From a virus, in IMG/VR virus record IMGVR_UViG_3300009618_000002, positions 1 to 43,678 of that record: a stretch of 43,678 bases of DNA, one strand, 5' to 3'. The notes beneath the pieces were generated by a model. It made no database searches. It worked only from the letters and a program-made list of their open reading frames with translations, and had not been told where the DNA came from. Below are positions 31,372 to 35,469 of this stretch, in pieces. A program made the position numbers and the translations under genes. Positions within the stretch are counted from its first letter, which is position 1. Every line of letters starts with the position of its first letter.

Positions 31372-31627
31372 TCTCTTTTTCCTCCGTCTCTGGATTGGCG
31401 CGTCTCCACGCCCGGTACTCGTCCCAGCCCCGCGGCTGCACCGGCGTCAGCTTCCCGTCCGGTTCCTGCTTGTACTGTATTTTCATCGCAGGGCGCTTCG
31501 CAGACTCGATCAGCGCCTCCTGCAACTCATCCACGCGCCGCTGTTTCTGCGCCAGTTGCTCCTTGAGCCAGACAATCTCCCGCTCAAGATGCGCGCGATA
31601 CGGGAAAATCAAGGCTATCAAGTTCAT
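31355..31627 (-). CDS. 90-residue coiled-coil protein after the large terminase
   Basis: A 90-residue protein starting at an ATG (31627) that overlaps the terminase stop as ATGA. A short hydrophobic start (MNLIALIFPY) leads into a coiled coil (HLEREIVWLKEQLAQKQRRV), and the C-terminal part is polar with Trp (PRGWDEYRAWRRANPETEE). The N-terminal segment may sit at the membrane or pack on another helix. It is a probable packaging or head accessory. Confidence 0.62.
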   Translation of the reverse strand: MNLIALIFPYRAHLEREIVWLKEQLAQKQRRVDELQEALIESAKRPAMKIQYKQEPDGKLTPVQPRGWDEYRAWRRANPETEEKENATGE

Positions 31628-33237
31628 CGCAAGTTCGATCTCCAGCTTGGCGGCATGATGGCGCGCTTCTTCTTCGCCCGCTCCTGCTCGTGCCTATACA
31701 AAAGCATCATACGCCCGCTTTGGTCCGTTGCCGCCATCTTTTCCTGAAACTTCGTCTCTTCCGACTTCGCCCGCGGCGCCAGCATGCTCTTTACCAGATA
31801 CCGCGCCGCATCCCCGCAATCCTGCTCGATCTTCGCCGTGCTCAAGTCCGTTTTCAGCACATCATCCAGGTTCTTCGGGTCACGCAGCAGCGCCGGAATG
31901 CTATTCAGCAACTCCGGGCATTCGCTCGAAATCAGCAGCGCATCATCGTACTGGAACCTTACTCCATCCTTGTCTATGCCCCAGCCCTTGCCCTTTGCCG
32001 CCTTGAAGAGCGAGCCCATCAAAGCCCATCCGCCCTTGCGATCATTGTCGGCCTTCACCGCCCCAGGCATCCCGTTTGCTCTTAACCGCTTTGATTCCTG
32101 TGAACCGATACTGTTAGGATCGTCCGTAACTTCCTCTGGCGAAAGGAAATACGCCTTCATCAGCGCACGCTCACGCTCCGGTGTAGAATCCACCATATCC
32201 TGTGCCACATCTACCGCTTCCCGCTCGTTCACGATCATCTCGCGGTAAACCACGGTGATGTTAATAGGCTTCTCCAGCGTCCATCCCAGCAAAGCCTGCG
32301 CCTCACTCGGCTTGAACGTAACCCGGAACGCCCAATACGTCACGCAGAAGTGCGCTTTGCCCCAGTCCTGCGCCAGCCAGTGCACCGACCAGACCTTCCG
32401 CAACTCCTCCGCCTGGCTCGGCGCTATCCGAACGCTCTCCAGATCAAAGGAATTGGCGAAATACGAGCCTTCGAGCGAGTTCCAATCGCCCTCCCAATCC
32501 GCCTGACGAATCACCTCGTCATCTGTCGCCAATTGCCGCGTGTACGGTCCGCGCTTGGCCGCGTATGCCTTTCTCTGCTCGTCCGTCCAGCGGTAATAGT
32601 CCTCTACCGTGTAGCCGTCCGCGAGCAGCGCCGCACGCACCCACTCCACGTTATCCCAGGGGTTCATCCGCAACCCGACATAATCCGCAGGGTCTTCGTC
32701 CTTGTTTACCTCATGCAAATAGAACCATTTACGCAACTCCTGAATGCTGGCCCCGCGCATGTTAAACACAAGCACGACCTTGGCGACCTTGCCGCCTGCA
32801 GACCGGCACGCCTTGCGCATCTCGCGGATCTCGCGGCCTGTGAACTGCTCCGCCTGGTCGATCACGATTAGATCGTAGTTTGCCGACCGGAACGCCTCAG
32901 TTACCGAGTCGTAGTTCTCTGCGTACTTGAAATCGAGCCTAGACTTGCCGATTCGCAGCATGGCCGGCGGGCTTGACTTGACCTGGGACGCCAACCAAGG
33001 GTAATCTCGCCGGATCGCCTCTAAGTGCATCGGCACGAGCTGTTTAACCCATGTGCGCATTACCAGGCAAGCTGTAAGCCCGCGCTGCTCGTACATCAGC
33101 GTGATAAGGCATCGGTCAGCGCCGGATGACTTCGCTGATCCGCGACCACCGTAGACACCGATGACAGGCGCATTACTGCGCGTCAGCAGCCGATAAAGCT
33201 CGGACTGCTTTGGCTGCATGACAATCTCGGCTTTCAT
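31624..33237 (-). CDS. terL: Terminase large subunit
   Basis: A 537-residue DNA-packaging motor. The ATG at 33237 is taken over a GTG at 33252 for lack of a ribosome site before the latter. Walker A is GGRGSAKS (residues 30-37). Walker B is LIVIDQAEQF (D127), with Gln128 where the catalytic Glu usually stands and Glu130 two residues later. The nuclease part begins near AQDWGKAHF (the motif-I Asp) and closes with the DCGDAARYL segment (a motif-III-like Asp). The ATPase pumps DNA through the portal and the nuclease cuts concatemers. The small terminase is three genes upstream. Confidence 0.9.
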   Translation of the reverse strand: MKAEIVMQPKQSELYRLLTRSNAPVIGVYGGRGSAKSSGADRCLITLMYEQRGLTACLVMRTWVKQLVPMHLEAIRRDYPWLASQVKSSPPAMLRIGKSRLDFKYAENYDSVTEAFRSANYDLIVIDQAEQFTGREIREMRKACRSAGGKVAKVVLVFNMRGASIQELRKWFYLHEVNKDEDPADYVGLRMNPWDNVEWVRAALLADGYTVEDYYRWTDEQRKAYAAKRGPYTRQLATDDEVIRQADWEGDWNSLEGSYFANSFDLESVRIAPSQAEELRKVWSVHWLAQDWGKAHFCVTYWAFRVTFKPSEAQALLGWTLEKPINITVVYREMIVNEREAVDVAQDMVDSTPERERALMKAYFLSPEEVTDDPNSIGSQESKRLRANGMPGAVKADNDRKGGWALMGSLFKAAKGKGWGIDKDGVRFQYDDALLISSECPELLNSIPALLRDPKNLDDVLKTDLSTAKIEQDCGDAARYLVKSMLAPRAKSEETKFQEKMAATDQSGRMMLLYRHEQERAKKKRAIMPPSWRSNLR

Positions 33238-33258
33238 AGATAAATCCGCCACTTCTGG

Positions 33259-33540
33259 TTAACTAGCAGCCGCCGTTGTGGCCTCGGCAGATAAAGCTGT
33301 TTTGGTAACCGTGTCGGCACTTTGATGTTGGCGACCAGCCCTCGCCACCCGGGGGTCTCTGCTTAAGTAATTCGGAAGGTGCATCTCCTCGTCCAGCCAG
33401 TTTATCCCGCAGGGATTGCACCGGACGTAGTCGCTTCGCTGGACTCTTGGCTTCCGGCAAAACGGGCATGGGCTCAGGGTTCCCACTTCGTTTAGCCTGT
33501 CCTGTCGGTTCGCTTCCTGCTCCTCGTACGTCAGCATCAT
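33259..33540 (-). CDS. Zinc-ribbon protein before the large terminase
   Basis: A 93-residue protein with a strong GGAGG four bases before the ATG at 33540. Residues about 25-45 hold CPFC ... RCNPC with INWLDEE after it, a zinc ribbon. The tail is Ala/Thr-rich (TKTALSAEATTAAAS). It lies within another open frame (33263-33646) that also starts with a zinc ribbon. Codon choice and the ribosome site favour this one as the main product of the region. A role with terminase is inferred from position. Confidence 0.68.
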   Translation of the reverse strand: MMLTYEEQEANRQDRLNEVGTLSPCPFCRKPRVQRSDYVRCNPCGINWLDEEMHLPNYLSRDPRVARAGRQHQSADTVTKTALSAEATTAAAS

Positions 33541-33646
33541 TCCACCTCCGAGAACGGCACTTTGCGCAGTGTGACGGTTGCACACGCCCCTTAAGCCAGA
33601 TATGTGCACATTGGGCACACTTCCAAGCCTGTACCGTTATCTCCAT
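33263..33646 (-). CDS. Zinc-ribbon protein, overlapping frame, possible leaderless start
   Basis: A 127-residue frame starting at 33646. Residues 9-33 (KCAQCAHIWL ... SHCAKCRSRRWN) are a classic two-CxxC zinc ribbon followed by WN, as in many small DNA-binding proteins. From about residue 38 onward it shares DNA with the 33259-33540 gene in another frame. There is no clear ribosome site, but the -10 of the promoter at 33653-33681 ends 6 bases before the ATG, so a leaderless message fits. The last 90 residues may be meaningless, or the frame may end earlier in relatives. Confidence 0.5.
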   Translation of the reverse strand: MEITVQAWKCAQCAHIWLKGRVQPSHCAKCRSRRWNDADVRGAGSEPTGQAKRSGNPEPMPVLPEAKSPAKRLRPVQSLRDKLAGRGDAPSELLKQRPPGGEGWSPTSKCRHGYQNSFICRGHNGGC

Positions 33647-33682
33647 GTGCCTATTGTAAACAGGAACGTGCCTATTGTAAAC
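33647..33682. repeat. Two tandem 15-base repeats at the start of the terminase operon
   Basis: GTGCCTATTGTAAAC is present at 33647-33661 and 33668-33682, a period of 21 bases (two helical turns). The copies double as the -35 and -10 of a promoter. They may also be operators. Confidence 0.75.
33653..33681 (-). promoter_or_regulatory. Late promoter built from tandem repeats
   Basis: On the minus strand TTTACA (plus 33676-33681) and TACAAT (33653-33658) are 17 bases apart, each 5 of 6 to consensus. They fall at equivalent sites in the two 15-base repeats. It would drive the terminase, portal and head genes. The -10 ends 6 bases before the ATG at 33646. Confidence 0.6.
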
Positions 33683-33684
33683 AA

Positions 33685-33849
33685 CTAGCCGCGTTTAGCC
33701 GCGAAGACGTGTGGGCGCTTGTGCTTGCGTTCCGGGAGCTTCTTACCTTTTGTGCCAGCATTCCACTCCTTCACGCCAGCTTCGCCCAGTGCAGCGCGAC
33801 CAGCCGACGAGTTAACCCAACGATTCTGCGCCTTAGAGACAGCCGGCAT
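33685..33849 (-). CDS. 54-residue basic protein starting MPAVSKAQ
   Basis: A 54-residue basic protein with AAAGGAG five bases before the ATG at 33849. The MPAVSKAQNRW start matches a widespread small phage and bacterial protein group (DUF3008-like, 'MPAVSKxQQR'). Ala/Gly middle and a Lys/Arg-rich end (KKLPERKHKRPH) suggest nucleic-acid contact. The stop overlaps none, and the promoter for the terminase operon begins right after it. Confidence 0.65.
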   Translation of the reverse strand: MPAVSKAQNRWVNSSAGRAALGEAGVKEWNAGTKGKKLPERKHKRPHVFAAKRG

Positions 33850-33851
33850 GT

Positions 33852-34304
33852 TTACTCCTTTATTTCCGCCGCGATGTGCTTCACAACCAGATCTAGCGGT
33901 GCGTCAGGATCACCAGCGTGCGTGATCTTGTCGCCGAATATGCGCGGGGCGAGCTTTGCGCACAGCCATTTACGCGAGTCGATCCTGATACGCGCCCGGT
34001 CGATGACTTCTCGATTGACCTGGGTCGCAGTCACGCCCTCAGTGATCTCGACTTCGATCTCATCATTCGAGCTATCGTCTGAAATATCAATGATTTGCTC
34101 TGCCAGAGTAAGACATTGGATAGCCTTTGCACGCGCGTACATGCCGCGGAATTCATCCGACTTGTGCAACCAGCGCCTTACCGTCTCATGGTGGGGAAAA
34201 TCATTATGAGCCGCGCAAATAACCTCCAGACTCTTCGGGGTAACCGCTATCGCATCACATATTTGTGAAGCAATCTCCGCGTCATAGCTGGTCGGTCGTC
34301 CCAT
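33852..34304 (-). CDS. terS: Terminase small subunit
   Basis: A 150-residue DNA-recognition subunit. It opens MGRPTSYDAEIASQICDAI and continues with a helix-turn-helix-like part (HETVRRWLHKSDEFRGMYA). The final third contains RARIRIDSRKWLCAKLAPRIFGDK, the highly typical end of small terminases (R.RvD.RKWlaskl.PKkYGDk). It marks viral DNA for packaging and feeds the large subunit. The start at 34304 is taken over 34316 because the perfect TATAAT at 34315-34320 leaves only a 10-base gap before it. It lies at the head of the late operon. Confidence 0.84.
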   Translation of the reverse strand: MGRPTSYDAEIASQICDAIAVTPKSLEVICAAHNDFPHHETVRRWLHKSDEFRGMYARAKAIQCLTLAEQIIDISDDSSNDEIEVEITEGVTATQVNREVIDRARIRIDSRKWLCAKLAPRIFGDKITHAGDPDAPLDLVVKHIAAEIKE

Positions 34305-34314
34305 AATGCTGCTC

Positions 34315-34320
34315 ATTATA
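34315..34320 (-). promoter_or_regulatory. Perfect -10 box before the small terminase
   Basis: TATAAT on the minus strand lies 10 bases before the ATG at 34304. The -35 position overlaps the divergent plus-strand TTGACA and is poor on this strand, so activation or competition between the two promoters is likely. Confidence 0.4.
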
Positions 34321-34337: not shown

Positions 34338-34366
34338 TTGACACTCACACGCAATATGTATATGAT
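34338..34366 (+). promoter_or_regulatory. Strong early promoter, plus strand
   Basis: TTGACA (34338-34343), a 17-base gap and TATGAT (34361-34366) form a near-consensus sigma-70 promoter. The ATG of the first early gene is at 34374, about where transcription should begin. It would drive the whole plus-strand operon. Confidence 0.75.
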
Positions 34367-34540: not shown

Positions 34541-34553
34541 ACGCATAATGCGT
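34541..34553. repeat. Palindrome ACGCATAATGCGT between early genes
   Basis: A 13-base inverted repeat (ACGCAT, A, ATGCGT) sits between the first and second early genes. It is a possible operator or weak RNA hairpin. Confidence 0.4.
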
Positions 34554-35194: not shown

Positions 35195-35323
35195 ATGAAT
35201 CAGGCAATCCTAAGAACTGGGTCAGATATGTCGTGGTCGTGGTCGCGGTCGTGGTCGCGGTCGCGGTCGCGGTCGCGGTCGGGGTCGGGGTCGCGGTCGT
35301 GGTCGCGGTCGGGGTCGCAATAA
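35195..35323 (+). CDS. Ser-Trp/Arg/Gly dipeptide-repeat protein
   Basis: A 42-residue peptide. After MNQAILRTGSDM, every second residue is Ser, and the others are Trp, Arg or Gly in the order W,W,R,W,R,R,R,R,G,G,R,W,R,G before the final SQ. AGGA precedes the ATG at 35195. The repeat comes from 14 copies of a six-base unit TCGNGG, where only the fourth base varies. The peptide should be basic, disordered and able to bind nucleic acid or membrane. Short dipeptide-repeat peptides of this kind are known from other phage genomes, without a settled role. Frame-shifted readings would give poly-Val/Ala or Gly-Arg peptides. Confidence 0.65.
   Translation: MNQAILRTGSDMSWSWSRSWSRSRSRSRSGSGSRSWSRSGSQ
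35231..35317. repeat. 14 tandem TCGNGG hexamers
   Basis: The unit TCGNGG repeats 14 times plus TCG. N is T, C or G and never A, so the codons are UGG, CGG and GGG. The repeat lies inside the 42-residue gene and is GC-rich. Confidence 0.9.
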
Positions 35324-35334
35324 GAAAGGACGCA

Positions 35335-35469
35335 ATGGATCAATCCGTCAAAGTCCACAGGATGCCCATTACGCTCTGGAGGCGCGCAAAGTCACTAGCT
35401 GCGCTCGCCGGGCTCACCATCAGCGAGTACGTCATCAACGCTCTACGAGAAGCTGTAGAGAAGAAGTAA
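35335..35469 (+). CDS. Ribbon-helix-helix (Arc/CopG-like) protein
   Basis: A 44-residue protein starting MDQSVKVHRMPITLWRRAKS. Strand (SVKVHRMP), helix (ITLWRRAKSLAALAG), turn (LTI) and helix (SEYVINALREAVEK) form an Arc/CopG ribbon-helix-helix. AAAGGA stands before the ATG at 35335. Such dimers bind operators and repress early promoters or toxin operons. There is no toxin partner nearby. A regulator of early to late switch is plausible. Confidence 0.75.
   Translation: MDQSVKVHRMPITLWRRAKSLAALAGLTISEYVINALREAVEKK

Follow-up and report, generated by a model that had tools for sequence, protein, structure and literature searches.

What could be the role of two identical, closely spaced elements that fill nearly the whole gap in front of a small gene, in the midst of the packaging genes of a virus? 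The locus belongs to a virus record of 43,678 bases with a 123-base identical end repeat, and this whole stretch of DNA is called the window here. Its packaging genes follow one another on the minus strand in the order terS, an ORF of 54 amino acids, the repeat pair, ORF A, the overlapping ORF B and terL. The features concerned are listed below.

33852..34304, minus strand: terS, Sf6-type small terminase (PF20901, E 4e-32)
33685..33849, minus strand: ORF of 54 amino acids between terS and the repeats
33668..33683, minus strand: repeat copy 1, putative distal operator, with the -35-like TTTACA at 33676-33681 (sequence, repeat test)
33647..33662, minus strand: repeat copy 2, putative proximal operator, with the -10 box TACAAT at 33653-33658 (sequence, repeat test)
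33646, minus strand: predicted transcription start at the A of the ATG, leaderless (geometry and the TANNNT rule, PMC3160421)
33263..33646, minus strand: ORF A, 127 amino acids, zinc ribbon and variable tail with a VQSLRDKLAG motif, proposed regulator (homologues, alignment, model, dN/dS)
33259..33540, minus strand: ORF B, 93 amino acids, in an overlapping frame with GGAGG upstream, Lar-like zinc finger (PF14354, E 0.0013, below the cut-off)
31624..33252, minus strand: terL, the downstream gene
35335-35469: 44-residue ribbon-helix-helix (RHH) protein, with a weak Arc-like match (E 0.0012)

ORF A and ORF B share about 280 bases (within 33259-33646), which they read in different frames, and would be co-transcribed; terL, in turn, may be served by the same promoter. 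On the other side, terS has a TATAAT (34315-34320) that ends 10 bases before its ATG. Elsewhere in the window, a palindromic ACGCATAATGCGT of 13 bases (34541-34553), a candidate operator, is located upstream of rightward ORFs and near a TTGACA-17-TATGAT match (34338-34366), and a tandem array with a 12-base period (GTCGYGGTCGYG-like, 35218-35330) is found just upstream of the 44-residue RHH gene.

Read on the minus strand, the 38 bases between the stop of the 54-codon ORF (TAG, 33687-33685) and the ATG of ORF A are T-TGTTTACAATAGGCAC-GTTCC-TGTTTACAATAGGCAC, i.e., two 16-base copies separated by 5 bases and preceded by a single spare base. The sequence-only reading from which this work departed had described two 15-base repeats placed 21 bases apart; the start-to-start distance is indeed 21 bases, but the identical unit is one of 16 (identity 16/16). 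The elements are ordered TTTACA, a spacer of 17, TACAAT, AGGCAC and ATG, and the promoter pair matches 10/12; both the 17-base spacing and the end of the -10 box six bases before the ATG, with the first T of TACAAT at -12, agree with that reading. So does its statement that the ATG has no ribosome site, since a Shine-Dalgarno motif was not found upstream of it, either in the window or in L001, the window's copy in the set of relatives (a match 99.98% identical). No further copy of the repeat, up to 3 mismatches, was detected in the 43,678 bases, and none of 3000 dinucleotide-shuffled versions of the 90-base start region of L001 reached its repeat score, p=0.0003 being the floor of the test. 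Taken alone, the promoter-like pattern is weak evidence, with 6 sites in 5.5 kb and 3.0 expected; the relatives were examined for this reason, and it is on them that the weight rests.

In leaderless (TA-led) genes, the published rule puts a TANNNT about 12 bases upstream of the start codon, counted from its first T (PMC3160421). The position of the box in the window and the lack of a Shine-Dalgarno motif found upstream together support a leaderless promoter, as had been proposed, and the relatives bear this out. Indeed, TANNNT stands at gap 6 before the first ATG in 17 of 381 deduplicated ORFs of at least 100 amino acids (the window, the phage loci and the MAG locus L087 included), against a mean of 4.1 at gaps 12-35 (Poisson 1.6e-6), a peak that matches the signature reported for leaderless genes (PMC3160421). 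For the ORF A-type gene, 14 of 17 distinct loci, window included, have the box at a gap of 5-7 bases; the gap is six bases in L001, L027, L018, L024 and L006 and five in L019, and no TANNNT was found at gaps 5-7 in L021, L052 and L109. Among Acidobacteria, TA-led genes average 13.3% of genes and occur in 3/3 genomes (Zheng et al. 2011, PMC3160421).

The relatives come from a TerL alignment in IMG/VR, of which 80 of 164 were kept; the scans before terL used 77 of these 80 loci, L005, L040 and L068 being dropped as duplicates or matches at a contig start. In 10 of the 77, the 1.8 kb before terL contain a zinc-ribbon ORF; among these ten, L020 and L021 are copies of one another. The repeat test took the best ungapped tandem match found within 90 bases surrounding a start, compared it with dinucleotide shuffles, and was applied to 17 loci. 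Eight were known before the test was set (window, L027, L018, L024, L006, L019, L052, whose start codon is ambiguous, and L021); L049 entered through the repeat scan; the remaining eight, recognised by protein similarity once the test had been defined, form the out-of-sample set (L100, L101 and L109, read by eye ahead of testing, and L146, L142, L145, L029 and L013). The set leaves out same-contig copies (among them L020, L099, L104, L105, L108, L110, L112-L114, L116, L118, L119, L138-L141, L143 and L144), as well as L026, whose zinc ribbon is far from terL, and L067, a tail gene whose contig starts 52 bases upstream.

Tandem repeats with p<0.05 surround the start in 12 of the 17 loci (Fisher 7e-19; 8e-17 without the window), and in 5 of the 8 out-of-sample loci (Fisher 2e-6), the same five falling below 0.05 with the shift range first used, 15-30, and with the range of 12-36 to which it was widened. 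No significant repeat was found in L100, L101, L018, L021 or L013. As controls, repeats were detected at 1 of 22 terS starts and in 0 of 8 homologues without a leaderless box, seven of which have a Shine-Dalgarno-like motif and one, L106, neither motif. These 22 terS starts were tested out of 34, duplicates and cut-off or doubtful starts being dropped (L086, L045, L044, L036, L043, L017, L031, L035, L011, L025, L010 and L030).

Ten of the 12 significant loci have their repeats spaced by 19-24 bases (p 3e-5, for a range chosen after the loci had been seen); L052 and L145, the two exceptions, have a spacing of 13. Their sequences vary, with TTGGTGCAATGCGCCA in L019, AGCGTACTATTAGTGCA in L024 and GTCCACACTGTGTCCA in L109. 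Because a spacing of 19-24 bases recurs with changed sequence, the earlier suggestion of two operators in helical phase finds support, and the repeats are probably operators. Moreover, the proximal copy of the significant upstream pairs with this spacing starts between -17 and -14. The repeat is as exclusive to this site in the record of L027 as it is in the window, and that of L019 has three copies here, the third with 3 mismatches, and a single 3-mismatch match elsewhere.

Since the two window copies are identical, a recent slippage duplication without function might be thought of. It is contradicted by the relatives: L027, at 64% TerL identity, retains both copies and the 21-base spacing with the copies different from each other, and different repeats recur at the same place in other loci, so that such an origin appears very improbable. 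The duplicated element could also act as a promoter only, supplying the -35 and -10 boxes without any regulator. This would account for TTTACA-17-TACAAT in the window and L027 and for TTGACA-17-TACATT in L047, where three copies close to the window's element precede the first gene after a terS-like ORF. The claim that one element gives both boxes holds in these three, the only loci where the repeat clearly supplies a -35, but fails as a general rule: in L024, L006 and L142 the second copy starts downstream of the first base of the start codon, and sites on either side of the start would fit a blocking of the polymerase better than the supply of a -35 box. Furthermore, 9 of the 22 terS starts carry a TANNNT at gaps 5-7, yet only one of the 22 has tandem repeats. 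A promoter devoid of regulator is thus a poor candidate, if a better one than slippage. Dyad symmetry within the repeats was rejected as a rule (Fisher 0.30 in the first set and 0.98 in the new one; below 0.05 in L006 alone among leaderless loci), and a general excess of tandem repeats upstream of terL (52 listed versus 19 from block shuffles) was not useful.

The phages L018, L019 and L021 offer the closest comparison. They share a TerS identical at 150-151 of 154 residues, and the first 600 bases of their terL are 85-89% identical. In 60-column blocks, identity falls to 20-67% right behind the terS stop and stays in this range across operator, N-terminal domain and linker, before returning to 87-93% in the tail. 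In phages that are otherwise nearly identical, the repeat thus diverges together with the N-terminal domain encoded next to it, which could be the trace of an exchange of the DNA-reading domain along with its operator, in a region that is more widely mosaic. A second diverged stretch separates the regulator gene from terL; exchange is therefore not confined to one cassette, and the reading as a single cassette is weakened. It also speaks against the exchange that gapped pairwise alignments of the short operator stretches still give 59-78% identity over 37-39 columns.

The same trio bears on whether the repeats might be a packaging (pac) site for TerS, as their placement between terS and terL and a TerS of Sf6 type would invite one to think. 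A nearly identical TerS next to different repeats argues against TerS as their reader, a Sf6-type pac site being contradicted by a recognition sequence that is not conserved with TerS; besides, the proximal copy is in register with a start codon. We consider a pac site scarcely credible.

Which protein, then, would read the repeats? At about an even chance, perhaps very slightly better, we favor a leaderless promoter of sigma-70 type whose repeats serve as operators and which is autorepressed by the N-terminal domain of its own gene product. The promoter between terS and terL would drive ORF A, and its transcript may extend through the overlapping ORF B and on to terL. The proximal copy would extend over the -10 box as far as the start point, with the distal one two helical turns away, so that a regulator bound to both copies from the same side of the helix would keep RNA polymerase out; in the window, the repeat also happens to spell -35 and -10 boxes. 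The most likely regulator would be the ORF A product itself, and the DNA-reading domain and the operator would change together. The odds stay near even because operator and zinc-ribbon similarity are uncorrelated overall (Mantel, n=13, rho 0.07, p 0.30; partial Mantel on TerL, n=10, p 0.22; neither significant).

This lack of significant correlation also speaks for operators of another protein that would repress or activate the promoter; the 44-residue RHH protein, a different repressor of the phage or a factor of the host could play this part. An Arc-like RHH protein is encoded in the window, and similar repeats are present in phages with distant terL (window, L047), as a shared outside regulator would give. 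Nevertheless, the 44-residue protein, put forward by the sequence-only reading as the binder, fares badly: its Arc-like score is weak, and a search of 8 related records, the repeat-sharing L027 and L047 among them, brought up a single weak match to it (E 0.01, record of L013). Moreover, no repeat copies with up to 3 mismatches were detected elsewhere in the window, and in L018, L019 and L021 the repeat and the neighboring N-terminal domain diverge together. Another regulator is accordingly unlikely, though to be taken seriously, and the N-terminal domain of ORF A would be a better candidate than the RHH protein.

The zinc ribbon of ORF A spans residues 1-38 (about 33533-33646) and behaves as coding between L027 and L100 (dN 0.14, dS 0.79); the codon use of ORF A in the window, which is atypical, counts against the favored reading. 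Alignment and model give a zinc ribbon and no beta-alpha-alpha domain in the window's ORF A. None of the fold searches reached E<=0.001; the ORF A model matches best, from E 0.28 upward, to a set that includes zinc-ribbon proteins. Zinc ribbons are also able to bind RNA or protein, a further point against the favored reading. Against phage GenBank records, ORF A had one protein match only, at chance level. RHH-like domains are present in L029, L049, L142, L145 and, weakly, L013, and these assignments are weak in score (in L142, PF01402 at E 0.0032, below the cut-off; in L029, a beta-alpha-alpha model with pLDDT about 65; no significant match in the fold search). The RHH-like versions of the gene have a leaderless box in 5/5 (gaps 6-7) and repeats in 4/5.

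The ORF A-type gene is modular: one and the same tail, ICGK-WWEDG-YECLMDKGHR, comes behind the N-terminal domain whether this domain is a zinc ribbon (L018, L019, L021 and L146) or RHH-like (L029, L049, L142 and L145). In L013, an RHH-like domain is joined to a tail like that of the window within the region of ORF B overlap, a similarity that may be owed to ORF B. Homologues of both ORFs occur in L027 and L052, ORF B being the better conserved in the latter (78% vs 40%), and ORF B is also found in L013. By similarity, the gene is placed behind terS in L001, L018, L019, L021, L029, L049, L013, L024, L052, L100 and L101, and no TerS match was found in the available stretch of L142, L145, L146, L109, L027 and L006.

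Inside the ORF, behind the DNA-binding domain, several relatives carry tRNA genes in frame and free of stops (ARAGORN, Rfam), the first of which begins at residue 39-40 in L021, L102 and L145:

L021:1272-1346: tRNA gene (Met)
L102:1678-1753: tRNA gene (Ile)
L145:1165-1240: tRNA gene (Met)
L145:1243-1318: tRNA gene (Arg)
L142:1222-1324: tmRNA match below the gathering score, in frame, behind the DNA-binding domain

As separate observations on neighboring genes, a large terminase-like ORF (L101:1814-4426) seems, from its translation, to carry after its GPGK motif an insertion that we take to be intein-like, and in L019 a small RHH-like ORF located between ORF A and terL contains GTTATAC several times over (L019:2835-2920).

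A broader proposal, which we advance tentatively and hold to be doubtful, is that of a specificity cassette behind terS, in phages that may infect Acidobacteriota. The operator, the leaderless start and the N-terminal DNA-binding domain, be this a zinc ribbon or RHH, would travel as one block next to a constant Cys-containing tail, and would amount to an immunity system in miniature, set among packaging genes. A tRNA gene read in frame as a protein linker would form the joint in some phages (L021, L102, two in L145, tmRNA-like in L142), and may be a recombination point. As for the host, it is only suggested by a single TerL-related genome, a Bryobacterales MAG (31% identity), the one hit of the genome scan with TerL; the scan with TerS found nothing, and across 396 genomes of the MAG's phylum TerL finds, at E<=1e-20, no genome but this one. 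The MAG has the same gap-6 peak as the phages: TANNNT stands there in 6 of 111 ORFs, with a mean of 0.71 at gaps 12-35 and 4 at gap 9.

The window has no DNA match in phage GenBank records, and none of the open-access PMC titles among the matches listed describes the promoter or gene of ORF A. Leaderless -10 boxes, tandem operators and small zinc-ribbon or RHH proteins are each known already; in this place they are combined, with an operator and a putative DNA-reading domain diverging together next to a nearly identical TerS. That related phages keep the layout with other sequences points to a built-in control switch. They would provide a natural series of putative protein-operator pairs from a poorly described phage group, and raise the testable questions of how a zinc ribbon and an RHH domain can replace each other and of whether the packaging genes are under the control of a specificity cassette.

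Compared with known systems, the window resembles TA-led bacterial genes in its TANNNT about 12 bases before the start codon and differs from them in having the -10 box within a repeated element and in a phage (PMC3160421). The -10 boxes adjacent to ORFs in Deinococcus-Thermus likewise yield leaderless messages; the genes there are cellular, and tandem operators are not mentioned in the part of that account used here (PMC12340547). Phage lambda is named for its leaderless message (PMC3160421). The likeness lies in a leaderless phage regulator gene, as is proposed for ORF A. In lambda that gene is cI, which is autoregulated, and protein fold, genome position and operator type differ from those of ORF A. 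Arc, CopG and ParD are autoregulated RHH repressors, small DNA-binding proteins acting on repeated sites over their own promoter; RHH-like versions of the ORF A-type gene exist in the relatives, whereas that of the window has a zinc ribbon and lies between terS and terL. Finally, lambdoid phages that are otherwise similar differ, in their immunity regions, jointly in operator and DNA-binding specificity, whereas here only an N-terminal domain and a short operator would do so, among packaging genes.
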